Part shown: positions 16,441-55,715 of the stretch, piece by piece | Numbering within the stretch: position 1 is the stretch's first letter | Layout of the letters: every line of letters starts with the position of its first letter | Assembly: GCA_949358305.1 (NCBI GenBank) | Contig: OX442315.1 | Span: forward strand, 2,358,001 to 2,418,000 | Source: Strigamia acuminata | Taxonomy: Eukaryota > Arthropoda > Chilopoda > Geophilomorpha > Linotaeniidae | Reading direction: 5' to 3' | Length of the DNA: 60,000 bases | The notes under the pieces: model-generated | Told to the model about the DNA's origin: nothing | Database searches by the model: none | Seen by the model: the letters and a program-made list of their open reading frames with translations, nothing else | Translations under genes and position numbers: made by a program

Positions 16441-16515
16441 TTCTTTGAGTAATTCTTCGATTTGGGTTATTATATTAAATGAGAGATCACAAGTTCAGTT
16501 GAGATTTATTTCAAA

Positions 16516-16533
16516 ATCCCGGACAGGCCCCCA
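16516..16533 (-). promoter_or_regulatory. Primer-binding site, tRNA-Pro-like
   Basis: Minus strand reads TGGGGGCCTGTCCGGGAT, two bases from the LTR. It matches the tRNA-Pro primer site known from murine leukaemia virus at 16 of 18 positions. Confidence 0.7.
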
Positions 16534-16535
16534 CG

Positions 16536-19286: not shown

Positions 19287-22210
19287 GTTACCATTCATGT
19301 ATGGCTTTGATGAATTGCCGGAATGCAAAGAAAATTATGTTTTTGTGTTTGAAAAAGCTGCGAACGTTTTCTTGGGACTTTGGAAAGCAAATGCCTCAAC
19401 TGACACTTGCAAATGTATCGCTCCTTGTAAGAAAGAAATAATTTCCAATCGTATGATAACAGAAGAGCAATCTGGATCGTCCGTGAGAGTAAAAGTGATC
19501 GATTCAATAAGAATCGCCAAAGAAGTGTCTTCTTACGACATCATTGCGTTTTTCTGCGATTTGGGAGGAAACGTCGGACTCACTCTCGGAGTGTCTTGTC
19601 TCATGATTGCTGAAATGACCATCATGTTAATCACTTTGATTCGTAGAAACATAAAGAGATATAAGATGGAACGGTCGTCTCATTCCACCTTTTTTGAAGA
19701 CAAAGTGGAAAGATGTCTTAAGAAATGTGTAGACACGAGCAAGGATGATTTTGCCACCAGTTTCCAACTAACGGGTCTACAGTTCATCTTGACCCGACAA
19801 AACAAAGGTCATACCAAAAAGTACTTTTGGCTTTTTCTCATTATTTTATCAAGTTCTGTATGCGGCTTTCAAGTATACGATCGCATTGCATATTACTTGT
19901 CCTATCCGAAAGCCGTGACTGTAAAGATGAATGCACTTGAAGACATCAAACTTCCAAGTGTTGTTCTATGCTTGGACAGGGGAAAACTGGCCTCCAAAAA
20001 GAAGAAGTACATGAAAGAAAATGGAATCACTGGTTGTCCTGATGATTTTGATATGCTAAACATGAATGACAAAGTATCGCTCGACCAATTGTGGAGTTGG
20101 TCTATAAAGGGGTCCAACTTTATGGCTGTAACAAAAAATGTATAGAATTCAAATAGTTCAAGCTGTTTTATCCTGCGTTGTAGCATCCGAAAGCTCTATT
20201 ACCACAATCTGATGTGCACAACTTTTCGTTGTGACTACAGTTAAATATTTAATTGTTCTAGATCAGGGAACGGCAACCTTTTGAGACGGAAGAGCCAAAA
20301 GTTACAATTTACAAAATTTCCCAGTTTTTAAAGAGCCACTACCATTTTTGTGTCAATATTAAGGTATTTGATTAGGATTAGGAATATAAATTTGATTTTT
20401 TTTTGCAGTATACCGTATTACCTCACATTAAGCCGCATGCCGGTATAATTCGAGTTATACCGGCATGCCAATAAACCTCGTTTATAATGGCATGCCGGTG
20501 TAAGTGAGTACGAATTTTTTTTTAAAGAATCTAGCCAAAACAACCAAAAAAATCATTTTTAGATGTCTAAAATGGAGGAAATTTGCATAACATTTTCCAA
20601 ATTTTAGTAGTAATCTTTAGATAAATAAAACTTAAATTATTAAAAATTAAAATAAAACTTAAATTTCAGACCCAAAATTCAATATAATTATTCATCTGGG
20701 CTCTTTAAAAAAAAAAACAAGAAAAAAAAGTTTTTCATTTATACCGGCATGTTTCGTTTTATATCGGTATGCCGGTATACACTTTTTGGACAAAATTTTA
20801 AAAACCTGCTAAACCCATGCCCAACGGCATGCCGCTTTATGTGAGGTAATACGGGTAATATTCTTTATGAGTTTTGAAAATAAAATGGTATAATTATTAA
20901 TATTTGCGCATGGAACTGGAGAGCCGCATGTTGATATCGAAAAAGCCGCAGGTTGCCGACTTCCTCTCCTAGATTGTGGGAACTGGCCACCATCGACTTC
21001 TAATTTTGTGACCAACATTAAGCAGAGGCCCTCAGCCGCTCCTAATCAATAAGCATATTTACATATTTCTCAGATTCTAAGATTCTGAGATGTTTTTATG
21101 AGGGGGGGGGTGCGTCTTAAAATCAAAGAAATGTGGTATAGTTGTAAGATGTGGTAAACTTGCACGCTGATCTGTTGGATAAAACAACTTTTAATGTGCA
21201 AAATCTGTACTTTGTACCTACTTTACTGTATTTGGATGTTATTTAGGATATATCTCCAGTTCAATCAGTTCCGATAACGCTTTCAGACTTCTCAACCATT
21301 TTTGGTGTTTGTACTAAAGTGACCCCAGGCAAGAAACGAAATAGGGCCAAATTTAATTACTTAAATACTTACTTGCATTGACTTTCAGAAATTACAAGAT
21401 ATTTTCCTATGTTTTCTGGCTATACTGTGACCTCCGTGAAATCTTCTGGGGACTGCCCAATTACAACAAAAGTTTGTGCTTCCTCCTATTCTTAAAATAA
21501 ATTTGTTTTTCAATTTTATATTTTCTCGTAAAGATCTTTCCGATTTCTCCTGGCAATGACTTGAGTTTGAAGACATACCTGTACATGCAAGACTCAGGAG
21601 TTAATCAAATTGTGTTCGCAATGCAAAAAGTATGAAATTACAAGTAAATTCAGAGTTTACAGAGATATACAGATATCCATTTTCTCAGTTAATCAGAAAA
21701 AACACACCAAAGAGTCCGTGCGTGGCCAAAAATGAATATTCGGAATGCTTAAAAGCGTGTCACGATAAAAGAATGCTGGCACAACAGCTTAGTTGCAAGT
21801 ACAGAACGCCAGTAGTGTGCAACTGGGCATATTTTACTTTACTGAAATGTCTTTACAGGTTGCCCTCTATGAATGCAACGCTGGAGACGTGCAAAGATGC
21901 AAAATCAGCAAAATTGGTCAAACAGCAATATCTTTCAGTGATGCTTAAAACCGATCCGATCGTCGATTGCAACTGCACCAAATCGTGCATCGATTCAATA
22001 TATTATCCTGAAATGAGGCTGCTCATGGATTACGGCTCGCCGGTCAATATGCTAATCATCAATGTTTTGAGTAACCTAGAAGAAATCATAGAAGAAGTTT
22101 TGTCTTTTCATTTCGTTAAACTTCTTTGCGACATGGGTTCCAACATGGGTGTTGTTGTCGGCATATCAGTCATGTCGTTTTTACACGACGTCTTGATGTT
22201 CTCAAGTTAG
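19287..22210 (+). CDS. DEG/ENaC locus 1: fused subunit A C-terminus and complete subunit B; 5' exons absent
   Basis: Amiloride-sensitive-type sodium channel family. Exons: 19287-20139, 21247-21328, 21389-21471, 21534-21629, 21689-21798, 21859-22210 (stop TAG). All phases agree. The first exon reads from the pre-TM2 region of one subunit (LPFMYGFDELPEC, CKCIAPCKKE) through its TM2 with pore motif GLTLGVS. Without a stop it continues into a cytosolic linker and the N-terminus and TM1 (WLFLIILSSSVCGFQVYDRI) of a second subunit. The rest supplies the second ectodomain and TM2 (CDMGSNMGVVVGIS). The intron after 21328 starts GC; the 60-bp intron 21799-21858 is open and a multiple of three. Exons for the first TM1 and ectodomain are not found upstream, where homology to locus 2 stops near 19240. 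It is therefore either 5'-truncated or has distant exons. Confidence 0.82.
20264..20966. mobile_element. hAT-like MITE in intron of DEG/ENaC locus 1
   Basis: Begins CAGGGAACGGCAACC and ends with the inverted GGTTGCCGACTTCCTC. Flanking 8-bp copies TTCTAGAT and TCCTAGAT match at 7 of 8. The paralogous intron at locus 2 lacks it, which defines the insertion. Contains a second element at 20411-20857. Confidence 0.75.
20411..20857. mobile_element. Nested TIR element (TACCGTATTACCTCAC ends)
   Basis: Inverted ends carrying TACCGTATTACCTCAC and GCCGCATGCCG, TA at both borders, no coding capacity. Sits wholly inside the hAT-like element. A single similar end is seen at 24741-24783. Confidence 0.7.
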
Positions 22211-28172: not shown

Positions 28173-28643
28173 ATGGCCTTTAAGCTCAACTCGCGTTCTC
28201 GAATGGAAATCCGTCGATTGGTAGACAAGTATAATGCACCCACAGATACCAATTACGCTTTCTTAAGCATCGTGCGAAAGATAAACGACAGTAAACTCAA
28301 TTGGCTTTTCCGCTTCTTTTGGAGCTTCATTCTCATACTGAGCATACTTCTCTGCATTGCATTGATCCACGACCGATTTGCTTACTACTGGTCCGAGCCG
28401 TCAATTGTCAACATTTACAGCCAAGAGATCAACACCATTCACTTTCCCGGTGTCATCGTGTGTACGACCACTACCCCCGAGTTTACGGAGTTTGCTTTGA
28501 AGATTGATAACGGCACAATTCCGCAAACTCTGTCGATATCATGCATAGAGCCATTGATTAACTACAATGCACACGTGAGTGCATCAAAACTGTGGTCTCT
28601 GTTGAACAGTAGTCGTGTTATTGACAACATTCACTTTCTCCAA
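28173..28643 (+). CDS. DEG/ENaC locus 2 exon 1 (N-terminus and TM1 of half A)
   Basis: 157 codons from ATG 28173 to donor GTAATG, preceded by TTTCTTGCAG acceptor. Contains TM1 with FFWSFILILSILLCIALI followed by HDRFAYYW, the same placement as QIYDRIAYFL after TM1 of half B. Confidence 0.85.
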
Positions 28644-31600
28644 GTAATGACAAAAATGTTTCTCTCTATTTTTGTTCAATTTCATAATATTGACAAATTT
28701 CTTTTTTGAGAATCCATCTGAAAACCTGAAAGAAAATTTAACGCATCTGTCCACTCTTGCAGGGTTGTGTGCAGCGATCAGCAGTGGTAAGAAAATCTCA
28801 TTTCAGTTTATTTATGCAAATTACTCAATTTTGCATTCTCTAGTGAAATCACTTAAAACTCTGAATTTAGGTCATAGAAATTTATGTTCTATAAATCGTA
28901 TCTTCTCACTGTCAGCTGAAAAGTAAAGGCTCAGCTAATACATGCATTCAATAAAGCATAAAACGGTTTAGAAGTGTGGTGTAAATTTTCTTTTAACCCA
29001 CACAAGTGATTACACGGTTCCATTTCTGGCTAAAATATACATTTAAAATTAAATTTTTTAGGATTAATTAAACTTTTTCACTTAAAATTAATTTTTTTAG
29101 GATAGATTAAACTTTTTCACTTAAAATTAATTTTTTTAGGATAAATTAAACTTTTTCACTTCACCTTCCCATAGCCGTGGTGGGTCAAAAAAATTACAGA
29201 AGTGGAAAAATCACTAATTCTTTTTTTTCCTTAAAATTAATTAATGAGGTTAACTTTTATTCCTCAAACACTTTTTTTTCTTACTTTATAATGTCAAAAT
29301 ACGAATAGTTTTTCTATTATTATTAAGATAATAGGTGCATTCAAAGTCAAATGAATTATTTGACGGAAGTGACTGATTTGACTGAAATGACTTATCAGTC
29401 ACAGGAAATGATGTAATTTACATCATCAGATGATAATCCAAATTTGACTAATCATAATCTGCTTATTTTCATGATTTTTTTACAAGCTTTTAAAGACTTT
29501 TCACCCAGTTTTTCCCTTTTTTAACGATTTTTACGCAGTTTTTGACGATATTTACCGAGGCTTTCACGATTTTTAACTGTTTTTCACGATTTTTACCCAG
29601 TTTGTCACGATTTTTATCCTTTTCACCCAGTTTTTTATGATTTTTCACAATTTTTACTCTGTTTTACAAATTACATAGTTTTTACCCAGTTTTTAACAAT
29701 TTTTACTCAGTTTTTTACGATTTTTATTCTTTTTTTTACGATTTTTATTCTTTTTTTCACGATTTTTATTCTTTTTTTCACGATTTTACACGATTTTTAC
29801 AGTTTTTCACGATTTTTACACAGTTTTTCACGATTTTACACGATTTTTACAGTTTTTCACGATTTTTACACAGTTTTTCACGATTTTACACGATTTTTAA
29901 CGTTTTTCACGATTTTTTATGATTTTTACTCAGTTTATCACAATTTTTATCCTGTTTTTCACGATTTTTTACGATTTTCACCCATTTTTTCTCGATTTTT
30001 TACGATTTTTACCCAGTTTTTCTCGATTTTTACACAGTTTTTCTCGATTTTTACACAGTTTTTCTCGATTTTTACACAGTTTTTTTCGATTTTTACACAG
30101 TTTTCTCGATTTTTACACAGTTTTTCTCGATTTTTACACAGTTTTTCATGATTTTTACTTAGTTTTTAATAATTTATTTTATCCATTTTTACATCTGTTG
30201 TCGCGTCCTACTTTGTATAGGTTTAAATAGCGCTAACGTGTAATACTTTACCTGTGATCAATTATGCAAATACCCAAATGAATACCAAATGTATGTAAAT
30301 AAACAGGTAATTTATTCACCAGGCTTTATGCCTTTAAAATACACTCAGTAATAATTCTAGAGTCGACGTGGTCAGCGTCGAACAAAGGATTTCTCAAGAT
30401 GGCGTCGTCGATTCCGCGTGGTCGGCGGAACAAAGGCGGCGTCTCGAGTTGTCGTTAATTCGTCACGGATTCGTCTTCACGGACGCGGTGGAATGCTCTC
30501 TCGAGTCTTCTATCCGTGCCTGTTGTCTAGGGTTTGGTCTAGCGTCGCAGAGGCCTCGTCTAGGAACTTTGGGGTTCCCTACAAAGCACTCGGACACTTA
30601 CTTCGGCGAATAATCGTCTGGGCGATTATTCTGGGTGCTTTCACAAGGGCTATTCTCGTGCTTTCGCAGGAATAGCTCGCAAGTGACTTCGTGAGAGTTA
30701 CAGTTTGCACTTTACTCAGCGATCCTCGATCAATCCTAACTTGTAGTTGAAGTTGGCCTGACGGTGAGGTAGTTGCTGTGTTCTTGGTGTCGTTTGTGTA
30801 AGTTCTGTCTTTTAGGCGGGAAACACAGCCTTTTATGCAGTGGGGTGAAGGGCCGGCGATCAACCAATGGGGGCTGACCACCAGCCGCTTCCTCCCCCTC
30901 GGGGCACACACCTGCCATGGGGAGGTGGAGCCAACTCGGGGGGGGAACGACTCTTCATTCATAGTGACTCAGAGGACAAGTATCCGCCCTGGGGGGACAC
31001 CTATCCAACTGGGTCACCACACTGTTAAAAATCTGTTAAAATCTGTTAAAAAGCATTCATTTTTTAAAAAAATATTCACTAAATAGCACCCATCTATTTT
31101 TTGATATTTACAGAAAGGCATTCATTTATTTAAAAAGTATTCATTTCATATATTCACAAAAAATAAACTTACTTTAATATATTCACAAAAAATAAACTTA
31201 CTTTAATATATTCACAAAAAAATTAACATATTTTCTTTTATTTATTTAATTTAATTTAATTTAATCCAATAAGGTGCGCGCCATAAGTATAGAATAATCA
31301 GTTTTTTTGAAATATTTCTTTTTGCGCTTCATCTGGAATCAAACCAATTTTTTAATAACTGTATTTTGGCATTAGAATTCATTTAAAATTAACAGGTTTA
31401 TAAGTTTTGTAGAAAAATAAATTTGGCAGTGATTTTACATAAAAATGGGGGTGACATAAGTATAGAATATTTTAGGTTTGATGCAAAAAAATGAATACAA
31501 TTAATATCACATAACATGCCTTTGTCTGATTAGTTAATCAGTGAATATGTCATCAATTTTCTGCCATTTTTGAATTGTATTACTTGCTATTTTCTTATGT

Positions 31601-34600
31601 TTATGCAATCCCTTGTGCAAAACTTGTAATCATTGTAGAAATTGCTGAAATATGGCAATTAAAGTCACTGGGGCTCTCCAAACAGCAAATCCATAGAAGA
31701 TCAGGAAGAAATTAATCAATTATATCAAAAGTCCTAACCCAAAGATGAAAATCAAACATGGAAGCAAGACGGGGAGGACCAAAAGTGACGATGCAGCAAG
31801 TGGACAGGAATATTTTGTGCCTGGCACTGACTTTACTGTTGTCTGGAAATAAAATTTGCACACATGTAGTAGTAATTGTGTCTTAGCAAACAATTCAAAG
31901 CAGACTAAACAATTGTGATCACCTTTGTTATCAAAAAATAGCTGTACAACTGTGGTTAACTGAAGCCCATAAATTGAAGTGCTCTGATTAGAGTAATACC
32001 AAGCTGCCCTGGACCAAATCATAGAAATCAGTGCTTTTTACAGACAAAATACAGTTCAACTTAGATGGTCTGGATGGTTAGTGTAATAAATGGCAAGATT
32101 TAAGGAGAGGAGAGAGATTTTCTCAGTGGGCAGAATCATGTGATGGTTTGGGTGACATTCGGGCAAAAATTACAGGCAAACATCATAATAATGAAAGGAT
32201 GGAAAGATTCACAGAAGTATAAGGAAGTGTTGAACATGCATTTATTGCTATTTGGATGGAAAATTGTGGCAATAAATGGGTGTTTCAGCAGGACAATGCT
32301 CACTGCATGGTCACTTTTGGTCTTTCCTGTCTGCTTTCGCACTTGAATTTCATGTTTTTGTTAGAATTTTTGATGCAATTGACTAATTTCTTTCAATTTA
32401 TTCTAATCTTCTATCAATTTGTTGTTTGGCAAGCCCCAGTGTCTTTAATCGCTTTATTTCAGCGATTTCTACAGTGGTTGCAAGTTTTGTACAAGGGATT
32501 GCTTCAAAATAAGAAAATAGCAAGTAATACAATTCAAAAATGGCAGAAAATTGATGACATATTCACTGATTAACTAATCAGACAAAGGCATGTTATGTGA
32601 TATTAATTGTATTCATTTTTTTGCATCAAACCTAAAATATTCTATACTTATGTCACCCCCATTTTTATGTAAAATCACTGCCAAATTTATTTTTCTACAA
32701 AACTTATAAACCTGTTAATTTTAAATGAATTCTAATGCCAAAATACAGTTATTAAAAAATTGGTTTGATTCCAGATGAAGCGCAAAAAGAAATATTTCAA
32801 AAAAACTGATTATTCTATACTTATGGCGCGCACCTTATATTTACTAAAAAATTAACTCTTTATAGAAATAAAAATATAAATGTTGAAAAAGTACTATTTT
32901 CACTAAAAAAAAATCCACTGCCCAGTGGAAATGCTCAAAACATAAATTACATGCAAACGAGGTTCAATGTTTGCAGGTTAGTAGCGCTCTTATAATTAGG
33001 TTAGTAAAATGCTAACACAACACTAAGCTAGTTTACAATAATATTCAATGAATAAATTCAAAAATAAATTCAAAAATAAATTCAAAAATTCAAATTAATC
33101 AAGAAAATCTTCAAAAATGATGTTTTCAAGAAGTTGAAAGGTTTGTGAAGTCATCTGGTGCACTTCACGTGCTTTTCCTTGAAAATCTGGTCCAAAATAT
33201 CCATAATTCTACTGGTTGAAATATCCAAAACAATCCACACACTTCACGTGTATTTTTCTGGTCAAAATGTCCGAAATTTACAATTTTCGCTGGTCTATGA
33301 TATCCAAATCGATTCCCACACTTCACGTGTGTTTTCCTCTCGAAATTTGGGTCTAAAAACGTTCAAAAACATGCAAAACGTTCAAAAAATGCCTCGCACG
33401 AGTCCAAATGGTACAAATCGTCGTCTGGGCACTTTCTCTGCTGCACGTCCTTCGCGAACGTTTCGTCAACGTTCCTCGTTGTTCGCGAACGTCCGTGCAA
33501 CGTTTCTCGTTGTCCGCGAACGTCCGTGCGACGTTCCTCGTCGATTAGCGGTCGACGCCGCGAACGTGTCGGAAATGTGCGGCCCTGGCAATCGTACGAT
33601 CGGCGTGCGCTCGAAAACATAAATTTGTGTTTAAAAATGTCAGCAATTACTAACCTTGCTTTTGCCTAAGTATGGCTGTTCAGCTAGGTAATGAGCACTG
33701 CTCATTTCTTGAGTCCTTGACCAGTTTCTTGCTGTATTCCTCTTTTCATGATAGACTGACTGGGGGCATCCATCTTGAATGACTTATTCCAGTGGCCAAA
33801 TAATTCATGTGCTGAGCCATGATTGGATGAATTTTTCCATCAGCCACTTATTGATAAGTCATGATTGGAGTGACTTATCAATAGGCCACTTATTGCAATT
33901 GAATTATCTTTTCAGTGATGTAAATTACATCATTTCCTGTGGCTGGTAAGATATTTCAGCCACATCAGCCAAATAATTGTTCACTTTGTATGGAGTTTAA
34001 CCAAATGACTTACATGAATTATTGATAATTCAGATTATGATAAGTCAAATTTGGATTTTAACTGTGAATGCACCTAGTGTAATATTTATAACATGTTGGT
34101 GTGCAACCTATAACATTTACAAGCATTTACATTTACAATATTGTTATGTTTGAATTTGTTTTGTTTAGATCAACAAGTTGATTTGTCGAATCCGAAAATG
34201 CAATTGGTTTTTAAATTTGATGAAACGAATCTTGGCAACAGATGTTCAATTCCACAAGTTAAGGTAAATTTTTAGTAAAGGAGGAGCTGTCATTAGGCTG
34301 ACAAACTCATTACTTTGACACCAATCCTTTTGGTGCCACTCATTTTGGCGCCACTCATTTCGGCGCTACCCATTTCGGCGCCAATCATTTTTATCATTTT
34401 AATCATTTTAATCATTGTGGTCATTAGTTGCATTTAAAGTCAAATGAATTATTTGACTTATCATAATCTGAATTATCAACAATTCATGGCTGATGTGGCT
34501 GAAATGTTTTACCAGCCAATGACTTGCATGAATTGTTGATAATTCAGATTATGATAAGTCAAATAATTCATTTGACTTTAAATGGACGTGATTTTAAAGG

Positions 34601-36458
34601 GGATCAAATTAGTTTTACCCTACTTTTCCTGACTTTACCCCTAAATAAATATTAAATTGCCCACTTACTATGTTTCTCACTAAGTAATTATTTTTGTTGC
34701 ACTAATTTTACTAATCCAAATTTAATTAATTTTTCCACTAAATAATTTTATTTCATAAATACTGAATTTTCCCCCAAAATTTAAATTATATACACTTTTT
34801 AAATTAGTCTGCAATAAAAGCTTTTTTTGCTTTTGATGGTCTTCCGCGTTTGCGTTTCTGGCCCAAAGGGACATTCTTGGCCTCACTTGGAACACTGAGG
34901 TATTTTTCGATAATTGCAACCCCGACGATGTGTTTGCAGATGTACGCTTTTAAAAATATTGGGCACGAACAAGTCCCCTCATCCCACTTCTGTTCGCAGA
35001 ACTTAACCATCCATAAGCGTTTTTTGGTTTTAATGTACGTATCGAAACGCCTCCAATTATTAGTTTCGGTCTGTCGTAGGTACTGGTCTATATCAGCAGC
35101 CTTCAACGAGGGTTGTCCTGTTGGGACAACGAAGTACGATTTGATGTTACCTGTTTCACGGCAGGTTATTTCCGGTTTCGAACGTTTCCAGTTGTATGCT
35201 TCCGTCATCAGTTTCAATGAAATCGTTGGCTTGCTAGCAAAAAGTTTTGCATTTACTGCTTGCGGATTTCTTTCAACTGACCAGTCTCGTATCAAAGTTT
35301 TCAACACTTCCAAAAAACGGTGGATCGGTAGTCGATTTCTAAGTGTACCATGGGTCTTAATGACATTATTGGTTGATTCTAGGCCATTATTGGTGCAAGC
35401 AGCTCCAACACAACGGCCAACATGCCACCCAACAAAACGCTCCAAGTACTCAGCTTCGAAATAATCCAAAAAATCGTTTGCTTCATCTTCTAAACGCCAC
35501 TTGCGTAGGAATAAACTTTTAGCCACGAAAAACTCTTCATCCGAGCACGCAAGTTGTTATCTAACTGCTTATTGGTCGGCTCTACTAGTGATTCCTCCAC
35601 AATCCTGCGCATAATTAATTTGGGTTTGGTAACTCCGTTTGTGTATAATTCTCGTATACGGTCCTTCGTTTCTTTCGGGATTCCCCACTGCTTCGGTTCT
35701 TGATGAGTGTGATCTTTGGTCGTGTAAAACAGATCTACCAAATCACAATCTGCTTTCAATAACAAATACCGCTTAGCACAGCATTCTGGATCCACTTTAC
35801 AGTCGTAGAAGATTTTTTCCCCACATGATGTGGTGTACTTCCTCCGCATGTTCCAAACGTTTTCTTGCTTTATAGCTGCTTTGGCTTCTCCCAAACTATC
35901 AAAGCTAGCCAATTTCGTCCACTCCTGTTCTGCCCCCCTTCGTCGTTTGCATGGTGGCTGGCTACCTTCATCACGATTGGCGTCACTATCCGAATCAGAG
36001 TTAGCATATACAAGTCTTCTATTCTTGCAAACTAATTATTCCTCTTACATTTTCATTAGTTTGTGCTGTTAGACAAGACAAATCCCACTCTTTCAGGAAC
36101 AAATGATGGTGCTTTGCCTTCAAAATATACAATCCTAAGCCTTGTATCTATTCAAAAAGTATGTTTCCTTTAAAATATGTCAGAGTTGATGCTCATTGTC
36201 TTTTGCACAGTATGAATTTATGAACAAAACCAAGCAACAGTGCACTTCAGATGAGAATTATGCTTCATGTGAAGCAGATTGTATACAACAGCAAATGAAG
36301 AAATCGAAATTACGTTGCAGGTTGGTTAACTAATGTTTGGTTGCAGTTTAAAGATTCATTCACATTTTTGTTCGCATTACACGAAAAAGTGTTGGAGTAC
36401 ATTTGAAAATGATTGAAACCTTTTTTAGGGCACTTAGTTGGGGTTTTTCAGTAATTGT

Positions 36459-36493
<35 letters not shown>

Positions 36494-36498
36494 TTCAT

Positions 36499-36529
<31 letters not shown>

Positions 36530-39500
36530 TTCATTTATTTATTTATTTATTTATTTATTTATTCATTTATTTATTTATTTATTTATTTATTAATGTCACT
36601 CCCAAGGAGTAAAGGTTACAGGAATATTAGACATTCAAAATTTTTTCGTTAAGAATAAACGTGTAGAGGCGTCTGTGGAGGTGCCTGCAGTGGGAGATGC
36701 ACTTTGATGATGAGCAGTCAAAGATGGTGGATCGTAAGTCGTCAGGCAAGTCATTCCACAAGGAGGTGCAGCGGTATGGGAACTAATTGGCCATGAATTT
36801 AGTGGTATGAATGTTGATTTCGAATCGGTGGTGTCGAGAGTTTCGGGAAAACGTATCTGGGTGGTAAAAACCAGCAATGAAGTGAGCCGGATGGTCGGTA
36901 TTTCGAACAGCGTCAGCGATAGCCGAGAGATCATACAGGCGCAGGACGGAATTGAACGTTAAGATCTTGTGTACGTTAGCTGTAGGTGTAACGTGGGATC
37001 TGCGGGGGATTTTGGAAGCAATGCAGAGGACGAGGTTGTATGCTGTTCTGAGAGGGATCTAGTAGCGGTTTGGAGAAGAGTTCCAGTAAGAGGAGGCATA
37101 AGTAAGTGTTGGATAGGTTTAACCCTTTATGAATTTTCGGGTCTCATAACTTGAAAGGACTTTGCGCAAGTGTTTAATTAGGTACAGTGGGAGGCAAAAC
37201 TAAGTTAACAAACACATCGTGTTGATTCTCACGGCTGTATCTCGGAAAAAAAAGAGGAAAGTTAATGAAATTTTAACTGGATACTTGTAGAACATCCTAC
37301 TGTATTCACCTAAAATTTTATCAAAATCTGTACACCTAGGGATCAATTATTTCTTCGATGGATTGGAGATTTTCAACTTTTTGCATCCCCAAACAAACAC
37401 TGATGCAGAGTATTTTACTGTTGGCAAACTTCAATTGGTTTTGTAATGTGTTTATATTACAAAATCAATTGAATTTTGGTACAAAAGTACAAGGAGTGAC
37501 AAAAGCAAGGTTTAACTATTTGTCAAAAAAAGAGAAGGGTGTTTAGATTAGACACAACAGCATTTGGCTCAATTATCTATAGCCAACAGTAAAACACTCC
37601 GCATCAGGGTTGGTTTGAGGATGCGAAAGGTTGGGAATCTCAGAAACTAACGAATAGATATTGATAAAATTTTAGTTGAATAAAGTAGGATGTTGTACAA
37701 GTATCCAGTTAAAATTTCATTAATTCTCCTCTCTTTTTTCCCGAAATACAGCCGTTAAAATCAACATGATGCGTTTGTTAACTTAGTTTTGCCCCCCCCC
37801 CCCACTGTAAGCTGTTCTATTCAGGAGTATAACTATTTTCTTATTACCCGGTATGGGGGGTGAAAGTCAAATAAATAATTCGTCGTTTTTTCTTACACAT
37901 AGGTTGCCGTTCATGTCTGGCTTTGATGAATTGCCGAAATGCGAAAAAAACTATACTAAAGTATATGTTGAAGCTTCAAACGCTTTCTTTGGACTTTCGA
38001 AAGCGAATGCTTCAACCGACACTTGCAAATGTACCGCTCCTTGTAAGAAAGAAATAATCTCCAATCGCTTCATTATAGAAGAGCAATCTGGATCGACCGT
38101 GAGAGTAAAAGTGATCGATTCAATAAGAACCGCCAAAGAAGTGTCTTCTTACGACCTCATTGCGTTTTTCTGCGATTTAGGAGGAAACGTCGGACTCACT
38201 CTCGGAGTGTCTTGTCTGATGATTGCTGAAATGATCACTATATTAATCACTTTGATTCGTAGAAACATAAAGAGGTATAAGATGGGACGGTCTTCTCATT
38301 CCACCTTTTTTGTAGACAAAGTGGAAAAATGTCTTAAGAAATGTGTAGACACGAGCGGAGATGATTTTGCCACCAGTTTTCAACTATCAGGTCTACAGTA
38401 CATCTTGACCCGAGAAAATGACGGTTATGGCAGAAAGTACTTGTGGTTTTTTCTCATTGCTTTAGCAAGTTTTGTCTGCGGCTTTCAAATTTACGACCGC
38501 ATCGCGTATTTCTTGTCCTATCCGACTTCTGTGTCTGTAAAGATGAATGCAGTTGAAGACATCGAACTTCCAAGGGTTGTTCTATGCTTGGAGAGTGGTA
38601 AACTGGCCTCCAAAAAGAAGAAATACATGAAAGAGAATGGAATCCTTGGTTGTCCCGATGATTTTGATATGTTAAACATGGTGAATTACAATTTATCGCT
38701 TGACCAATTGTGGATTTGGTCTAGGATGGGCTCCAACTTTATGGCTGGAACAAAAAATGTATATTATTAAAACAGTTAAAGCTGTTTCATCCAGTACCCG
38801 GAGGCTCTATTAACCGCAGTCTTATGTGCACAACTATTGGTTGTGACTATAAGACGGTTAAATTACCCGCCATGGTATGGGGATTTACCACAGCGGGAGG
38901 GATGCATACATCACGTAATAACAAGACAGGGACTCAGATTGTTGGGTTTTGACCTTTAATCGTTGGCTCGGGGTTGGGTCACCTATCTTACTGTGTGGCT
39001 GTGCTGTTAGGCACGCTACATCGGCGTCCGACCCGTCACACACAGGGCGTGAGCCCCATGGGTGACGTGGTCGGTTGCGTTGGACAAACATTCTGCCGTA
39101 CTTACCTGTACGACTCATGTAGCCGCTCATGGAGGCTGCAGCAGGCACATCTTCCTGCTACTGAGCGTCACAGTGGTGAATGGTGAGAGCAGCAGAGTCA
39201 GCAGTTGTCTCTGCTTTGGTTGGGACTGTGGCAGCTCACCCTGGCACGTCTTCACTCTTGACTTTCTCAGCAACGTCTCTTTCTCATCACACCACTCAGC
39301 TCCCTCCTCCCCTGCTACGCCGGTCCACACCTCCAAGAGGCAGACGGCTTGGGGCCACCAGGTGGTGTGTGGAGTGACGTAGGCAACTAGGGTGGGCAAA
39401 CGGTCACAAAATATTTAATTGTCCTAGATTGTGGGAACTGGCCACCACCCAGTTCTAATCTTGTGACCAACTGGCAACATTAATACTACGTTTACATGCA

Positions 39501-41340
39501 ACGAATATTTTGAGTGGTGAATAATTCGAGTGGTGAAAAAATCAAATTGTTTTGTTTATATCGAGAAAATAATTTGTGATCACTTTTAGTTTTCGACCAA
39601 TGGGGAAGCGCCAGAAGCGATGTGCGCATGTGCAATAAAAATAGTTGGAGTTCACTCGAATTAAACAACCTTCTGCGAGGAATTATTTACTACTCGAATA
39701 TTCTTTTTCATCCCTGTTTACATGACAGTTGTGCACACGGAATATTTTATCTCACTCGAAATATTCCGTGCATGTATGTACTGTATAATTAGTCGCCCTG
39801 AGATGTTTGTATGGGGGTAGAATCAAAAAAATGTGGTAAAGTTGTTAGTTGTGGCAATCCTGCGGGCTGATCTGTTGGATGAAACAGCTTTTAATATACA
39901 AAATATGTAATTTGTAACTACTTTACTCTTTTGGATGTTATTTAGGATATCTCTCCAATTACACCAGTTCCAATAGTGCTTACACCATTTTCAACCATTT
40001 TTGGTGTTTGTACTAAATTGACTCCAGGCAAGAAACAAAATACGGCCAAATTTTAGAATTTAAATATTTACTTGCACTAAATTTCAGAAATTACAAGATA
40101 TTTTCCTAGATTTTCTGGCTATTCTGTGAGCTCTATGAAATCTTCTGGGAACTGCCCAATTACAACAAAAGTTTGTGCTTCCTCGTTTTCTTTAAACAAA
40201 TTTGTTTTACATTTTTATATTTTCTCATAAAGATCTTTCCGATTTCTCCTGGCAATGACTTCAGTTTGAAGACATACCTGCACACACAAGACCCAGGAGT
40301 TTATCAAATTGTGTTCACAATGCAAAAAGTACGAAATTACAAGTAATTTCTGACATATACCATGTTGACAAATATCTATTTTCTCAGTTAATCAGAAAAA
40401 ACACACCAAAGAGTTCGTGTGAGGCCAAAAATGAATATTCGAAATGCTTAAAAGCGTGTCACAGTAAGAGAATGCTGGCACAACATCTTAGTTGCAAGTA
40501 CAGAACGCTAGTACCACAAGTATACTCTTTCCGCACTCAAGAGGAGCCCTGGAAGCTGGGCTGCCATTGGCCAAGCCATTTCACTTGAGTACTGATACAA
40601 AAAGAAGACCCAAAACACCATACTTGTGATGGCGTACAGACATTGTAATAGATCGGCTAAAATAACATGTGCTCTCTAGACACAGCGAGCAATAAAATGA
40701 AAAGAAATTTGTTTTAACTAAAAAAAACATAAAACTTTATTTTAAAGATGGAAAAAACATTTTATTACATAATAACAATCAATGTACATCATTTCAACCA
40801 TGATTATTCACGAATAAACTAAAAATCATAAGGAACTACTTTTCCTAGTAGCAGTAGTTCAACTGCAGTTCTGAGTAATTAAATAGGGCCAATGGGAGCC
40901 CAGCTTCCAGGGCTCCTCTTGAGTGCGGAAAAAGTTTAGTGTGCAACTGGGCATATTTGACTTTACTGAAATGTCCTTACAGATTACCCTCTATGAATGC
41001 AACGCTGGAGACGTGCAAAGATGCAAAATCAGCAAAACTGGTCAAACGGCAGTATCTTTCGGTGATGCTTAAAACCGATCCGATCGACGATTGCAAATGC
41101 ACAAAACCTTGTGTCGATCTAATTTATCGTCCAGAAATGAAGCTGCTCATGGATTACGGCTCGCCGGTCAATATGCTGATCATCACTGTTTTAAATAACC
41201 TCGAAGAAATAATTGAAGAAGTTTTGTGTTTTCCTTTCGTTAAACTTCTTTGCGACATGGGTTCCAACATGGGTGTTGTTGTCGGCATGTCGGTCATGTC
41301 GTTTTTACACGACGCCTTGCAAGTTCTCAATTTGCGATGA
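28173..41340 (+). CDS. DEG/ENaC locus 2: two channel subunits fused in one 778-residue chain
   Basis: Exons: 28173-28643, 28711-28786, 34169-34263, 36211-36320, 37903-38758, 39946-40027, 40088-40170, 40233-40328, 40388-40497, 40983-41340. Every junction has AG acceptors, GT donors (GC after 40027) and matching phase; no stop until 41340. An acceptor at 28156 precedes the ATG, so a 5' UTR exon lies upstream. Layout: N-terminus, TM1 (about 44-66), short ectodomain, TM2 (about 337-363, motif GLTLGVS), ~60-residue linker, TM1 (about 430-452), ectodomain, TM2 (about 746-772, motif VVVGMS). Cys-rich segments CKCTAPC and CKCTKPC precede each TM2. Each half is about 390 residues, short for the family. 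The His of the N-terminal His-Gly gating motif is replaced (LSGLQYI). Exons 4 and 9 have equal length and phase, as expected for an internal gene duplication. One ectodomain exon may be missing from half A. Confidence 0.85.
28790..29330. other. Intron 2 start of DEG/ENaC locus 2; AT-rich, three short direct repeats
   Basis: A ~55-bp AT-rich unit with TTAGGATAAATTAAACTTTTT is repeated at about 29040-29160. No coding exon. Confidence 0.5.
29333..29470. mobile_element. MITE relic (TCAAATGAATTATTTGAC family)
   Basis: Starts GTGCATTCAAAGTCAAATGA and shares its internal block (AGGAAATGATGTAATTTACA) with 33900-34075 in inverse orientation and its ends with the palindrome at 34431-34583. Confidence 0.55.
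29480..30178. repeat. ~20-bp minisatellite (TTTTTCACGATTTTTACACAG)
   Basis: About 700 bp of degenerate tandem units, first TTTTTACGATTTTTACCCAG then TTTTTCTCGATTTTTACACA. The plus-strand Phe-rich frame is a by-product. Confidence 0.9.
30199..31021 (-). mobile_element. Solo LTR of the gypsy-like family
   Basis: 823 bp, TGTCGCG...CACCACA, flanked by the 4-bp direct repeat CTGT (30195-30198 and 31022-31025), so it is a genuine insertion reduced to one LTR by recombination. Homologous to 16536-17354, with both sharing the GATGGCGTCGTCG block. Lies in intron 2 of DEG/ENaC locus 2. Confidence 0.92.
31272..32835 (+). mobile_element. Tc1/mariner-type element with long inverted arms
   Basis: Flanked by TA. 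The first ~330 bp (AGGTGCGCGCCATAAGTATA...) and the last ~330 bp are identical inverted repeats, and weaker inverted similarity continues to about 550 bp per arm. Each arm holds the direct repeat CATAAGTATAGAATA twice (31282 and 31455 on the left), an IR/DR layout as in Sleeping Beauty-like elements. Inside, on the plus strand, WVFQQDNAH (about 32275-32300) is the second-Asp motif of Tc1 transposases, but the frame is broken, so it is not autonomous. Confidence 0.85.
32836..33150. other. AT-rich spacer; no gene
   Basis: Short AT-rich runs with (AAATAAATTC)n at 33045-33090. Nothing else recognised. Confidence 0.4.
33155..33345. repeat. ~75-bp tandem repeat with CACGTG cores
   Basis: Three units, each with CACTTCACGTG followed by TTTTCCTTG/TTTTTCTGG and an ATATCC or TGTCC block. 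CACGTG is an E-box, but repeat origin is the simpler reading. Confidence 0.65.
33455..33585. repeat. GC-rich minisatellite (GCGAACGTCCGTGCAACGTT)
   Basis: About four imperfect units of 31-33 bp with GCGAACGTCCGTGC and ACGTTCCTCGTTG. The overlapping frames are not genes. Confidence 0.75.
34431..34583. mobile_element. Palindromic MITE, 58-bp inverted arms
   Basis: Arms from CATTTAAAGTCAAATGAATT to CAACAATTCATG are identical inverted copies around a ~36-bp loop. Same family as relics at 29333 and 33780-34075. Confidence 0.8.
34804..36030 (-). pseudogene. MULE-type transposase with the catalytic core deleted
   Basis: Two adjoining frames. 35912-35490 (open further up to about 36,030) has a Cys/His-rich N-terminal domain (YTTSCGEKIFYDCK, CCAKRYLLL, HTHQ) of the FLYWCH/WRKY-like type found in Mutator-like transposases. 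35526-34804 has the C-terminal part, including NNGLESTNN and a SWIM zinc finger CSCPIFLKAYICKH, with a basic RKRGRPSKAKK tail. The DDE/D catalytic region expected between them is missing and the two frames overlap out of phase, so no active enzyme is encoded. The element is in intron 3 of DEG/ENaC locus 2. Confidence 0.8.
36450..36594. repeat. (ATTT)n microsatellite, probable LINE 3' tail
   Basis: About 36 units with three ATTC interruptions. On the minus strand it directly follows the LINE 3' end at 36597 and above, so it is probably that element's AAAT-type tail. Confidence 0.85.
36597..37180 (-). pseudogene. LINE 3'-end fragment with AAAT tail
   Basis: Minus-strand frame with one stop: DHPAHFIAGFY ... 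FPYRCTSLWNDLPDDL ... FDCSSSKC, ending at a TAA near 36650. This is the C-terminal tail of a CR1/Jockey-like reverse transcriptase ORF. Same family as 22420-22800. Only the 3' end is present, as usual for 5'-truncated insertions. Confidence 0.7.
37185..37807. mobile_element. Mariner-type MITE with ~60-bp TIRs
   Basis: Flanked by TA, ends CAGTGGGAGGCAAAACTAAG and the inverted CTTAGTTTTGCCCCC...CACTG. Inverted similarity continues inward through GTTAACAAAC and AAATTTCATTAA. A 12-C run marks the right end. No transposase. Lies just upstream of the fused DEG/ENaC exon. Confidence 0.85.
37903..38758 (+). CDS. DEG/ENaC locus 2 exon 5 (TM2 of half A fused to TM1 of half B)
   Basis: 856 bp, 285 codons plus one base completing an Arg codon. 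Residues about 86-110 are TM2 of half A; about 120-178 are a basic, Ser-rich cytosolic linker; about 179-200 are TM1 of half B. No stop or splice site separates them, and the paralogue at 19287-20139 has the same layout at about 85 percent identity by eye. Donor is AAT|GTATAT. Confidence 0.88.
38759..39945 (+). other. Intron of DEG/ENaC locus 2 with unresolved ~550-bp insertion
   Basis: Against the paralogous intron at locus 1, sequence from about 38861 to 39413 is extra. It starts TACCCGCCATGG and ends GGTCACAAAA. It is GC-richer than its flanks, its frames are short and unrecognised, and no TIR or target duplication is evident. Confidence 0.5.
40498..40982 (+). other. Intron of DEG/ENaC locus 2 expanded by a MITE (about 40515-40935)
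   Basis: At locus 1 this intron is only 60 bp. Here an element with inverted ends CTTTCCGCACTCAAGAGGAG...CTCCTCTTGAGTGCGGAAA, ~50-bp arms, lies inside it. Donor GTACAG and acceptor TTACAG are kept, so the gene should still splice. Confidence 0.85.
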
Positions 41341-47989: not shown

Positions 47990-50261
47990 TTCTAATGTGC
48001 TTTTAATGCACTAATGCACTTCTAATGTACTAATGCACTTCTAATGTATTAATGCACTTCTAATGTACTAATGTACTTCTTCAGACTTGAAAGAGGAGGA
48101 ATTGTTAGTCTTGTCATTTCCTGACGTGTTGTGTCTAGGGAGCTGACAGTCGATGATCTCTTGGGTGTCCATATACTGGGTCTCGTACATAACATCTCCT
48201 TTCCTGGCTTTTACTAACGCCGGAATCCATCGTGGTTACTGAATCAGTTTCCGCTTCCGCAGATAACCCAAACACATCCTTACCGGTGTAAGTTTCTGAT
48301 TAACTTTCAGCTGGGTGTTCTTCAGCCGGAATTTGTTTGTGACCGCTTGGCTACCCACGGTGACCTGCGTCACTTCACACTCTACAGCAGGAGTCGGCAA
48401 GTAATTTTAAGTGGGGTCCGGATACTATTAAAAATTTTTATCGAGGTCGAAAAAAACACTTAAAAACCTTACTAAAAACCTAAGAAAACACTTAAAAACC
48501 AAATAAATCCTCCAATAAACACACACAACCCAAAAAATACCAATAAAACCTAAAAAACATGAAAAAAACAGAAAAAATAAGAAAAAAAACACCGGAAAAC
48601 CAAAGAAACCGTAGGAAAAACGTCGCTAAAACGTCACCGCGGTCCAAGTTTCGACCTTCCGCGGTCCGTATCCGGACCGCGGTCCGCCAGTTGCCGACCG
48701 CTGCTCTACAGGGTGTCTCGCCGAACACCTACCAGGTGAATTATTTCACAATCATGTAAATTTAAAAATACTTTTGATTATGAATTTAAATGAATGACAT
48801 GTGAGGAATTCAATGAAACATGTTAAATTCATGTGACATTGTTGCATCACTGTTTTGCAACTCGTAACTTTTAAACCAACAATGCTACGCAAAAAATGTT
48901 GATTACAAAGTTGTAGAGCGCCATCTAATTAGTCTAGAACTGTTCTTAAAAAAATTGTTTCTTACTGAAAAGTTTTGAGAAAAAAAGGTTTGAAATTTTA
49001 GTCTACTGAGCTTTGTAACCTAAAACTATCATGTGGAATGTATTTCCAAAATAAATTATTTCCTTTCTTTTGTGTTTCCTCTCTTCCACTTACAAGTATG
49101 ACCCAATAAAGTGTCCTAATTGAGGATTAGCTTGGTTGCCTCAATAGTTTTAGGTTACAAAGCTGAGTTACAATGCTGAGTAGACTAATGTTTCAGACCT
49201 TTTATCTCAAAACTTTTCAGTAAGAAATAATTTTTTTAAGAACAGTTCTAGACTAATTGGATGATGCTCTACAACTTTCTAATTCACTTTTTTGATCTAT
49301 CTGTCACGGTTCTCGAGTTACAATATGGATTACCTTGAAACTAACCTCAGGAATGCACCTTGTTTTAGCGATTTTCACTTTAGCGAATCCATTTTAGCGA
49401 CGCCCAAAAATTCGCTAAAACGGTGTGATCGCTAAAGTTAGGTGGCGCTAAAATAAAATCGCTAAAACGAAGTGGTCGAGAATGAAGAAACGTTACATTA
49501 AAAATAGTATTGCCGTGTACGTTTTGCATTGCGTTTGATCATAATTTTCACCTAAACTTAGAAGAATTTGGATTTATTTTGGCATCAATGCATCATACAA
49601 TTGTTTTTGCAAAATATTTTCGCTAAAATGAATCATTCGCTAAAACGGGCTTTGCTAAAATGTGTCCTAAGCTGCGGCAATGTACTCTCATTTTCGCTAA
49701 AATGAGATCGCTAAAATGGGCTTAAAGAATTAAAATTCGCTAAAATGGGCTTGGCTAATAAGGAGTGATCCGGACCTCAGAGGTCAAATTGGATGTCGTA
49801 ATTGGATTTCCCCCGACATACTTGTATTACCCTTACAATCATTTTGCTAAATCAACATCTAAAACGGTTTGGGAATTATTTACTGTGAACCAGACTTTTT
49901 GAACCACCCTGTATATCTATATTTCGACATATACATCTATATTTCATGGAGTCGATCAGCACAACTATTAAAATGGATAAAAATTTTGCCAATTTCACTT
50001 TCCCCACAATCGTCCTGTCTCCTGTGCTCCAATCAAATCCACGAGTACCTTCTGACATTAAAAACTCATCAAAGTAGATTTAAAAATCATTAAAAAGTCA
50101 TTAAAAGTGGATTTAAAATTCATTAAAAACTCGTCAAAATTAGATTTAAAATTCATTACAAATACGTTTAAAAAAACCATTTAAACTGCTCCAATTGACA
50201 ATAATTACGTGGATGGATTGCTGTATGTGGCACACTGATCTTATATAAACAACATTGAAAT

Positions 50262-52141
50262 ATGCTAGCCAGAATACATTTGATTCACACACAGAAGAAA
50301 AACACTACAGGTAACAACATTTTTTCCTCTTTAGGCAAAGGTGAACATGGTGTTGGAAGTTGGTTAAATGAAAGGAGAGAGAGAATTTACTTTTTTATTT
50401 GCATTTCACTTTCTTTTACAGATTTCTCTAAACAAATACCAATATGAACCAGTGTCGTAGTCTTCTCGTCATATTTACTTTGATTTTGCTTACTGTTGAA
50501 GTTGTTTTGTCAACATCCTTAACCGAACTATCAGGTAACTAGAATTCAGAAAAAAAGCACGAAAGCTGCATTCGAAAAGTTGTTTAAACTAAAAAGCATT
50601 TTTAAACTACCGGACTCAAAGTAAAAAAAAAATGGTGGCCAAAAAGCAAAATATGTATATACAGTATATACAGTACCGGTGTATACAGTGTTTAATTGCA
50701 ATTTAAAATGAACTTTTTGAATTCAGTAAATTTTACGCAGTAAATGTAGCAATCTCCAAATATTCTTAAATGATTTTCAGAAGAAACTACCAATGAAGAG
50801 AGGGAAGAGTAAGTTAATGTCATCAGTTTGTGCAAGTACCAACCTTGGACATAAAAAACGTCCCAGCATGAGTGTTTTTGGCTGTATCCACCAGGTAGTG
50901 CAAAAACTCACTGATAACTTGTGACAAATGGAAATTGAAATGACGTCACACAATCATCTAAACCAGCGGTCGGCAACTGGCGGCCCGCAGTCCGGATCCG
51001 GCCTGCGGAAGGTCGAAACTTGGACCGCCAGATATTTTTTATTATATTTTTTTTGGGTATTTTTGTTGTTTTTTGGTGTTTTTTTGATTTTTTTGTTTTT
51101 TTTGGTGTTTTTGGTGTTTTTTGTGTTTTTTTTGTTTTATTTTGTTGTCTTTTTCTGGACTTCAAAAAAAATTTTCACTAGTATCCGGACCCCACTCAAA
51201 ATTACTTGTCGACCCCTAATCTAAACCAACGACGTGAATGTGATGGTGTGACATCATTTCAATGTTAATACGTCATAAATTATCAGTGAATTTTTGCACT
51301 ATCTGGTGGATAGAGCCGAATACGTTCATTCTGCAGGAAAGCTTCAAGATGGACTGTGACGATTTTTATATCCAAGGCTGTACATACATGTAGTACACAT
51401 GCACACTACAATGTACTGTTTGATGATTCTGCTTCGCGTAATAAGCTACCAAGATATTCCTATCACTATTGCTGATAAACCTTAACGAATAATTCAAGCA
51501 AACAAACAATAATCGAAAAACGGGTAAATACTGGATTTCCGGATCTAATCGTGTGTAAATTGGGTCGCATCAGCTGGTTGAATGTCCGGGCGGGTTGAGG
51601 ACATGGGCCGGGTTGTCGGCATCGATAAGATTCGGTAAGATTTTTATTCTTGTATTTAGTAGTTTGAATGATTTGGGTCAGCAGCCATTTTGTGTATTTG
51701 TTGTGTGTTTGCATAGTGACGCACCAGAATTAATTGACTCAGTCATGTGATTGTAGTCATCTGCAATGTGAATCTCCCAACCAATGGGAGTATTTCATGT
51801 ACTTTTTGGAATAGAGTTTAGCTTTATGCAGTCAGTAATTCACTTTAGCTCGCACAATGTCTTTGCCTATCTCGTGTAAATATCGTTTGTCGGCAAAAGC
51901 GAAGGCAGGAATCGTCACAAGTGATTAAAGAACTATAATTAATTGTAATCGTTTTATGTCTAGGCCATGTATAGCACTTAATGAACGTTGTGGTCATCGC
52001 ATGGACGGCTGCTGCAAGACAACTCAAGCGTACGGACAGACTGAGTCTGCGACAGTGGGTTGTCGTATGTTGTGGCCCGATGTTTATAATTATTGCCGTA
52101 TAGTTGTTGGTACAGATTACACTTGTAAGAAAACAAACTAA
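50262..52141 (+). CDS. Secreted cysteine-rich (knottin-like) peptide, array copy 2
   Basis: Coding exons 50444-50534, 50781-50808 and 51964-52141, each 5,919 bp from copy 1, with identical splice sites and no coding difference seen by eye. Intact and presumably expressed like copy 1. A third copy would follow beyond the copia insertion, outside the window. Confidence 0.8.
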
Positions 52142-52784
52142 CTGTTAAATGAAGTGAACATTTAAGTAAAATAAAATTAATGTTGCAAACGATTGGTTAT
52201 TATACTTCTTAGCGTTGTTACTCTTCAAACGTTCATGAGGTTTAGAAATCTTGTGCATTGATCAAGCTCCTAATGAAGGCAATGACCTAATTTGAGGCAC
52301 AACATCGCAGAAAGGTGAGATGTCAAATGAAAATTATAAAATAAAAATAGTAAAATTGCTACCATAATATAAATCATTTTATTTCTAATGGCGTCCTAAA
52401 TGGATTTTATGCAGCAACATCTGACAATCAAGAACAAGCAATTAAGAATAACAGATGAAGCCGACAGTTTAACGTTAGGTGGCGCAACTTGATAAATTTC
52501 ACATTCAATCTATCGAAAATTTGTACAATTTCCGTTTATTCAGTTAAATAAAATTTATTTGGCATTGAATTCATATATGCGTCATCTTGCATCGCGTACT
52601 GGAAGGTGAAATTATTCTTTTCAGGCTCATGCGAAACTTTATGTAACGAGCGCCACAGCGGAAGTTGTTGCTAATAAAACATTTTATTAAAGCATGAAAA
52701 CATTTTTTTTTCGTCCGTACAATTTTTTTAATCCAATTTAATGAGTTGCCAACTACCCAAGTGGTTAAGGATTTTTGAATTCAC

Positions 52785-55596: not shown

Positions 55597-55715
55597 TACG
55601 AGAAAAATGCCAGCTGGATGGCAAAAGAGTGGATGAATCGATTCGAGTGTTGAATTAGGCGGTGTTTCTTGTGGTTTTTTGGACTATTTGTACGTAAGAG
55701 TCGCGACATTCGGAA

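Follow-up and report, generated by a model that had tools for sequence, protein, structure and literature searches.

We report on a gene of the centipede Strigamia acuminata that lies on the + strand of a 60,000-nucleotide (nt) stretch of contig OX442315.1 (positions 2,358,001 to 2,418,000), hereafter called the window. This gene very probably encodes two DEG/ENaC channel subunits as a natural tandem dimer, and its family probably goes back to one fusion. In the textbook view, a DEG/ENaC channel is made up of three separate two-span subunits. In contrast, the chain predicted here would begin with a unit A, which has two spans and a Cys-rich domain outside the cell, and continue through a short linker in the cytosol to a unit B with two further spans. 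The gene structure, a further copy within the window and hundreds of fused-exon loci in the genome lend good support to the presence of two DEG/ENaC units in one coding chain, which was proposed in a first-pass annotation of the window. The annotation described a single odd gene; the description of the gene holds, but the gene is not alone, since it belongs to a very large family with at least 320 fused-exon loci.

In the proposed origin, the last exon of a gene A, which carried the second transmembrane span (TM2), would have been fused in frame with the initial exon of a related gene B, which carried the first span (TM1), and the dimer gene would then have been duplicated many times. How DEG/ENaC subunits of different kinds come to be ordered is difficult to investigate; in this family, evolution appears to have set the order of two units within a single chain, seemingly on one occasion, and the arrangement has since been retained and copied hundreds of times. 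We infer from the sequence that the gene is transcribed and translated as one chain, that both units fold in the usual way and that they form a pore.

Structure of the gene

The earlier model of ten exons with matching phases in one open frame was reproduced with the same ends (Table 1). However, joining the exons gives a chain of 763 residues, 15 fewer than the 778 given earlier. All nine introns have an AG acceptor, and the donors are eight GT and one GC, the latter at 40028 after exon 6; in 11 modelled relatives (see below), the donor of exon 6 is GT in seven and GC in four. Two alternative models were discarded: a short exon 2 at 28763-28790 was dropped for the one in Table 1, and a model with nine exons, which used a phase-0 donor within exon 6, was dropped after the 38-nt exon 7 was found, which is also kept in the copy.

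Table 1. Coordinates of the gene, its copy and irregular exon groups (window positions, except where contig C3 is given)
Feature	Location	Strand	Remarks
Exon 1	28173..28643	+	Start codon, N-terminus, TM1 of A, first extracellular part; phase 0-0; Pfam ASC 7e-12
Exon 2, unit A	28711..28786	+	Phase 0-1; acceptor TTTTTTGAG; 76 nt in 11/11 modelled relatives
Exon 3, unit A	34169..34263	+	Phase 1-0; 95 nt in 11/11 modelled relatives
Exon 4, unit A, Cys-rich part	36211..36320	+	Phase 0-2; 110 nt, same as exon 9 of B
Exon 5, fused: end of A with TM2, cytosolic linker, TM1 and start of B	37903..38758	+	Phase 2-0; kept in window copy and genome
Linker TM2A-TM1B, about 56 residues (chain 372-427)	38264..38431	+	Within exon 5
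Exon 6, unit B	39946..40027	+	Phase 0-1; GC donor
Exon 7, unit B	40088..40125	+	Phase 1-0; 38 nt, also in copy and 8/11 modelled relatives
Exon 8, unit B	40233..40328	+	Phase 0-0
Exon 9, unit B, Cys-rich part	40388..40497	+	Phase 0-2
Exon 10, end of B with TM2 and stop	40983..41340	+	Pfam ASC 1.5e-5
Copy, fused exon 5	19287..20139	+	853 nt, open, protein 80% identical
Copy, exon 6	21247..21328	+	Exon joining
Copy, exon 7	21389..21426	+	Exon joining
Copy, exon 8	21534..21629	+	Exon joining
Copy, exon 9	21689..21798	+	Exon joining
Copy, exon 10	21859..22210	+	Two small frame-changing indels, last codons only
Irregular group	C3:1557489-1588688		Pieces
Irregular group	C3:1599122-1601547		No first exon among matches listed
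Irregular group	C3:3254048-3255754		No fused exon among matches listed
Irregular group	C3:3363176-3381473		Broken fused exon
Irregular group	C3:4409864-4413403		Broken fused exon

Hydropathy supports all four of the membrane spans claimed earlier, with span-like stretches at about residues 41-72, 336-373, 429-452 and 742-760 of the 763-residue chain, and shows one borderline hydrophobic stretch in addition (540-559, in the extracellular part of unit B). Unit A comprises 377 residues and unit B 386. The whole chain matches the Pfam ASC domain (PF00858) in four stretches (E 8e-35), and each half alone lies above the curated cut-off of 23.6 bits (A, 56.7 bits, 3e-15; B, 73.1 bits, 3e-20). The two halves align with each other at 23.5% identity (BLASTP, E 8e-22), and 11 cysteines are aligned between the 15 of A and the 16 of B. 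Each unit has the two membrane spans and the large Cys-rich extracellular domain that characterize DEG/ENaC subunits, but there are two units in a single frame rather than one subunit per chain. The two-unit chain is a variant of DEG/ENaC, domain membership being independent of the number of units per chain. ASIC, ENaC, PPK and FaNaC resemble each unit (Pfam ASC, two spans, Cys-rich extracellular domain) and are known as separate two-span subunits.

The halves also correspond in their introns. Introns 2 and 6, as well as introns 4 and 9, occupy the identical column with the same phase in A and B in three of three alignments, and introns 3 and 8 and introns 1 and 5 have the same phase and are no more than 5 and 3 columns apart, respectively. 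Unit B has one intron more than unit A, and no counterpart of exon 7 was found in unit A. Because the halves share their gene structure, exon 5 looks like a last exon (compare exon 10) fused in frame to a first exon (compare exon 1); it runs, as originally described, from TM2 of A (TM2A) through the linker to TM1 of B (TM1B) in an unbroken frame.

Second copy in the window

A tblastn search of the chain against the window detected a second set of exons 5-10 at 19287-22210 with the same phases, the GC donor and the 38-nt exon 7 (Table 1). Its fused exon stays open despite a DNA divergence of about 12%, and omega between the copies is 0.46 (bootstrap 0.33-0.63; exon 7 left out). Over 500 codons, the pair shows 164 substitutions and no stop, compared with a mean of 6.2 stops in a neutral simulation, in which 6 of 5000 runs were stop-free; with half the substitutions, corresponding to one neutral lineage, 198 of 5000 runs had no stop. 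In the fused exon, the amino acid differs in 56 codons versus 71 expected under neutrality, and only 1 of 5000 simulations was as low. Indels number 7 in 567 nt of alignable non-coding sequence versus 3 in 1531 nt of exon, but we do not take this contrast as proof because three short introns compared are also without indels.

Exons 1-4 of the copy were not found within the window. The copy was at one point considered a 5'-truncated gene making only unit B, a candidate that was weakened once a set of exons 1-4 (L028), 83-94% identical to those of this gene, surfaced at C3:2220117-2222311, 155 kb upstream of exon 5 of the copy. In the list of exon order along C3, the position of this set is the one at which the copy should have its first exon, and the two may form one gene as a candidate pairing. 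Between C3:2220117 and C3:2377288, the separation of exons 1-4 from exons 5-10 by 155 kb would represent a giant intron, an insertion or a broken gene.

Fused-exon loci across the genome

We searched the genome to which the window belongs (237.5 Mb, 157 contigs). Note that this search scores the best candidates only, and the counts are lower bounds for the fused exons in the assembly. With the fused exon of this gene as the query, at least 141 matches were obtained; 114 of them span TM2A through TM1B, and 111 of these are stop-free. Two further fused exons used as queries gave 136 of 141 and 125 of 134 listed matches that span the join. The three lists overlap little (13/114, 39/114 and 5/136), and their union contains at least 320 fused-exon loci, 303 of which have at least one stop-free alignment. 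Since only the best candidates were scored and the lists overlap so little, 320 is a lower bound.

Along C3:1.5-4.85 Mb, the matches listed on both strands include 29 first, 29 fused and 28 last exons or pieces of them, and 24 of the fused exons are both spanning and stop-free. The order first-fused-last is followed regularly in 23 triplets, the fused exon of which is intact, and there are five irregular groups (Table 1). Contigs C2 and C7 have no match among those listed in the fused-exon, first-exon, last-exon or further searches.

Gene models of close relatives and selection

For 11 of the 15 close loci (L009-L023), complete ten-exon models of 756-773 residues without any stop were constructed. 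For example, L009 is complete within 3.2 kb; its introns are 54 to 239 nt long, and its fused exon lies between introns of 58 and 66 nt.

Omega was calculated for 42 of 66 gene pairs, namely those whose proportion of synonymous differences (pS) is below 0.55. The whole chain has a value of 0.41, the fused exon 0.37 and the linker 0.31; the values for TM2A, TM1B and the extracellular part of B are 0.29, 0.26 and 0.46, respectively. Judged by omega, the linker is under constraint, no weaker than that on the rest of the chain. Both units are intact and under selection in one chain, as expected of a natural tandem-dimer channel.

Divergent families and origin of the fusion

The first query also gave 107 fused-exon loci outside the close clade. 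Among the matches listed, 32 of these have a last exon at most 10 kb downstream and 16 have a first exon at most 10 kb upstream, whereas the wrong-direction control gave 10 and 5. Ten stretches (L029-L038) with fused exons 19-25% identical to that of this gene were read using clade profiles, together with a cluster on C5 (L024-L027). First, fused and last exons appear in this order in seven of eight stretches (L029, L031-L036); in the eighth, L030, the first and fused exons are present and the last exon was not found within the stretch. The remaining two read fused-last-first-fused-last (L037) and fused-last-first-fused (L038). Four more loci (L039-L042) were picked by a match to exon 1 or exon 10 where the first query listed no fused exon. 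All four hold one; L039 and L042 are complete and in order, and in L041 no first exon was found in the stretch.

No three-unit chain was found among 16 pairs of fused exons on the same strand within 12 kb, one of which (C3:33886993/33899324) is unchecked. Eight pairs have a listed first or last exon between them, and seven more, read directly (L024-L027, L037 and L038), have last or first exons between them, mostly both.

In a tree built on 236 columns from the halves of 23 genes, A and B are kept apart without a single misplacement among the 46 (IQ-TREE ultrafast bootstrap 100, FastTree support 0.994). Support for the split is 0.907 with the start parts alone and 0.877 with the end parts alone, and the A and B subtrees show largely matching groups. 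Since the A and B halves split 46/46, one ancient fusion is likely, and the A-B arrangement is, judging from the tree, probably older than the split of these families.

Pore motifs and known channels

The G-x-S belt in TM2, which is GAS in ASIC1a (PMC5449180), reads GVS in A and GMS in B of this gene; it is present in both units of all 12 aligned genes, the belt of B being GMS, GLS, GVS or GIS. TM2 of unit A, GGNVGLTLGVSCLMIAE, has Glu at the place that matches E18' of ASIC1a, a residue that sets sodium selectivity (PMC5449180). This 18' place is Glu in A of all 12 aligned genes; in B, it is His in 11 and Asn in one. Units A and B are not interchangeable, because both the 18' residue and the belt differ. 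However, a fixed role of the 18' place should not be assumed, since the A units of 11 distant genes carry Glu, Asp, Asn or Lys there; an acidic residue at 18' is no strict hallmark of the family. As for the HG motif before TM1, B has Ser-Gly in its place (Thr-Gly or Pro-Gly in relatives), and none was seen by eye in A. This absence is not decisive because PDPNaC1 also lacks a canonical HG motif.

The best match in PDB of both halves (A, 2e-13; B, 2e-9) is BRTNaC1, a heat- and acid-gated centipede DEG/ENaC (PDB 8ymr and others). The likeness covers the Cys-rich part and TM2, but BRTNaC1 is a single two-span subunit with a 431-residue chain and three chains per entry. The next match for A (1e-12) is PDPNaC1, a proton-dissociation channel of centipede antennae (PDB 9jf7). 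It resembles the present units in being short (421 amino acids, aa) and in its lack of the HG motif; it differs in that it is a single subunit, encoded by a nine-exon gene, that forms a homotrimer (PMC12714832). Eight of the nine sequences matched in PDB have three chains per entry; PPK26 has two. By themselves, these matches would point to an arthropod source, perhaps a myriapod, although invertebrate members are few in the PDB.

Engineered ASIC1a concatemers are similar to this chain in that subunits are joined tail to head via the cytosol (PMC4529235, PMC5449180). Dimeric, trimeric and tetrameric constructs gave currents (PMC4529235), and trimeric ones served for the study of pore mutants (PMC5449180). 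These concatemers are man-made from identical units with an added 8-residue linker (PMC4529235), whereas the units here are diverged and the linker is natural. Nevertheless, a concatemer can work, because the engineered dimers gave currents. The authors of PMC4529235 argued for tetramers at the surface, in contradiction to the trimer of the crystal structure.

The first-pass annotation knew of no naturally concatenated DEG/ENaC. None was found in the literature searched either, which included the available text of PMC10507113 and PMC7738191 and few subscription papers, and the main text of two myriapod genome papers makes no mention of ENaC, sodium channel, degenerin or pickpocket. Mites provide another case of arthropod DEG/ENaC families, some members of which have been suggested as chemoreceptors; two-unit proteins are not mentioned in the available text (PMC7738191). 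The lack of precedent is provisional, since protein databases were unsearched and predicted records with two ASC domains may exist.

Weighing of the alternatives

Several observations count against a natural tandem dimer inherited from one fusion. Within the linker, only 9 of 56 letters are invariant in 12 aligned genes, and one acceptor-like AG lies deep inside it, at 38316; between the window copies, the linker alone differs in 9 codons versus 12.3 expected, which is borderline (P 0.057). The AlphaFold2 model of the fused exon with its copy had a predicted local distance difference test (pLDDT) value of 31.5 and was not used. Unit B has no selectivity Glu, and it may be doubted, from the sequence, that B lines the pore in the usual way. 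As to the loci, 17 of the 320 have no stop-free alignment. Four of the 15 close loci could not be fully modelled: L013 and L015 have no recognisable exon 2 (the end of L013 is also unresolved), L016 has two unresolved boundaries, and in L023 a start is missing from the expected position. Of the 11 models, two are flawed, exon 7 of L011 being placed as 2 nt and L010 being short of 4 residues in TM2A. Among the matches listed, only 45 of the 107 distant loci have a first or last exon in the right direction within 10 kb, and three have both; in L040, the fused exon looks broken and the last exon was not found. In the tree, the start parts were cut slightly differently, from first exons for A and from fused exons for B. 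Moreover, when three single-subunit units from C9 (described below) were added (33 tips, 221 columns), A formed a clade (95) and B did not. The root of the A/B tree is not settled, because the long outgroup branch attaches in such a way that B is no clade.

The broken loci lead to the possibility of a pseudogene or an assembly artefact, in which two genes would have been falsely joined or a repeat family would be decaying. The stops in some copies, the state of L040, possible assembly duplicates among fused exons that share identical scores or are located on small contigs, and a 5.9-kb near-identical repeat beside the gene that may itself be an assembly duplication fit this explanation. We nevertheless find it scarcely credible: the join occurs at no fewer than 320 loci on many contigs and at all degrees of divergence, with 303 of them open, the window pair lacks the stops expected under neutrality, and omega is well below 1.

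The linker, which is 32 to 56 residues long in 23 genes, bears on whether the chain remains whole. The chain may be made as a polyprotein and then cut in the linker into two ordinary subunits in equal amounts, which would form normal trimers. Its varying length and few invariant letters are compatible with such a cut, and the engineered ASIC1a concatemers gave lower bands that their authors read as cleavage or incomplete synthesis (PMC4529235). However, no shared cleavage motif is visible by eye in the linker alignment, the constraint on the linker is not below that on the rest, and the join is kept at hundreds of loci; we consider cleavage unlikely.

It is also conceivable that one locus yields two proteins, with B made from an internal promoter, start or alternative splice and A from a short transcript. 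Here the earlier statement that exon 5 contains no stop or splice site needs qualifying in its second part. A donor-like site occurs at 38680 and scores 7/9, compared with values down to 5/9 for the real donors of this gene (the window copy has no such site), and there are four acceptor-like AGs, including that at 38316. A start at M378, whose good context (AAGATGG) is shared by the window copy, would give a unit B of 386 residues; polyadenylation-like signals are present in intron 5. On the other hand, M378 is present in only two of the 12 aligned genes (this gene and L020) and absent in 10, and the linker is without any Met in 13 of 23 genes. Separate translation of B is for these two reasons unlikely as a general rule, although a start inside TM2A stays compatible with Met-less linkers. 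Since the introns that flank the fused exon of L009 are so short, there is scarcely space for a separate promoter except within the coding exon, which also counts against two proteins. On balance, we regard this explanation as highly improbable and prefer the tandem dimer.

Possible assembly and single-subunit genes

A trimer cannot be made up of whole two-unit chains, and a tandem dimer would therefore require a partner, a unit left out, units shared between pores, cleavage or another kind of pore; if the chain is uncleaved, unusual assembly would follow. Our best guess is that the pore stays a trimer, in which one chain would fill two neighbouring places in a fixed A-B order and the third place would be taken by a single-subunit partner or by a unit from another chain. 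A trimer of one A-B chain and one more unit seems most likely, as a guess.

Candidates for such a partner exist in the genome. At three loci on C9 (L046, L048 and L050), a first exon is followed after about 0.6-0.7 kb by a last exon with no fused exon detected between them; these may be single-subunit genes and putative partners for the A-B chain. When the C-terminal part of PDPNaC1 was used as the query, 108 of 150 listed matches were stop-free, 48 with open frames of at most 215 aa and 60 with at least 240 aa, and none between. The best PDPNaC1 match among those listed (37%) lies in the same C9 region. Clusters of DEG/ENaC end-unit matches with short open frames were observed at about 11.5-12.0 Mb of C9 and at about 4.6-5.0 Mb of C10.

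The size of the family and its nearest solved relatives suggest, by analogy, a sensory role, perhaps chemosensory or acid-sensing. A bolder idea, which we hold to be rather doubtful, is that of a receptor-like family consisting entirely of obligate A-B concatemers, in which several hundred variable A-B dimers would each give two fixed, adjacent places of a trimer and share a single-subunit partner, such as the C9 genes, or would form a pore that is not trimeric. If true, this would mean a genetically hard-wired stoichiometry, with a variable dimer and a constant co-receptor, or a DEG/ENaC pore that departs from the trimer.

Other features of the window

About 730 nt after the stop of the gene, the segment 42071-49483 recurs as 47990-55402 with 99.88% identity and a shift of 5919 nt. 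This repeat is either a recent tandem duplication or a false assembly duplication. An intronless, uninterrupted thymidine kinase frame of 190 residues lies at 38-610 on the - strand (Pfam TK 4e-53; thymidine kinases in PDB about 1e-44). A scan of viral contigs gave no relative, and the Rfam and tRNA scans found nothing.

An open copia-type retrotransposon frame of 1404 residues with gag, integrase and reverse transcriptase is located at 55698-59912 on the + strand. In the region 12830-17284, two frames lie on the minus strand: one, of 1057 residues, matches a zinc knuckle weakly, and the other matches a protease of retroviral type. A 750-nt repeat (16536-17284) is found beside them and reappears, at 83%, at 30199-30942 within intron 2 of the gene. 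The same intron contains an inverted repeat at 31269-32838, the arms of which (31269-31796 and 32303-32838) are 91% identical.

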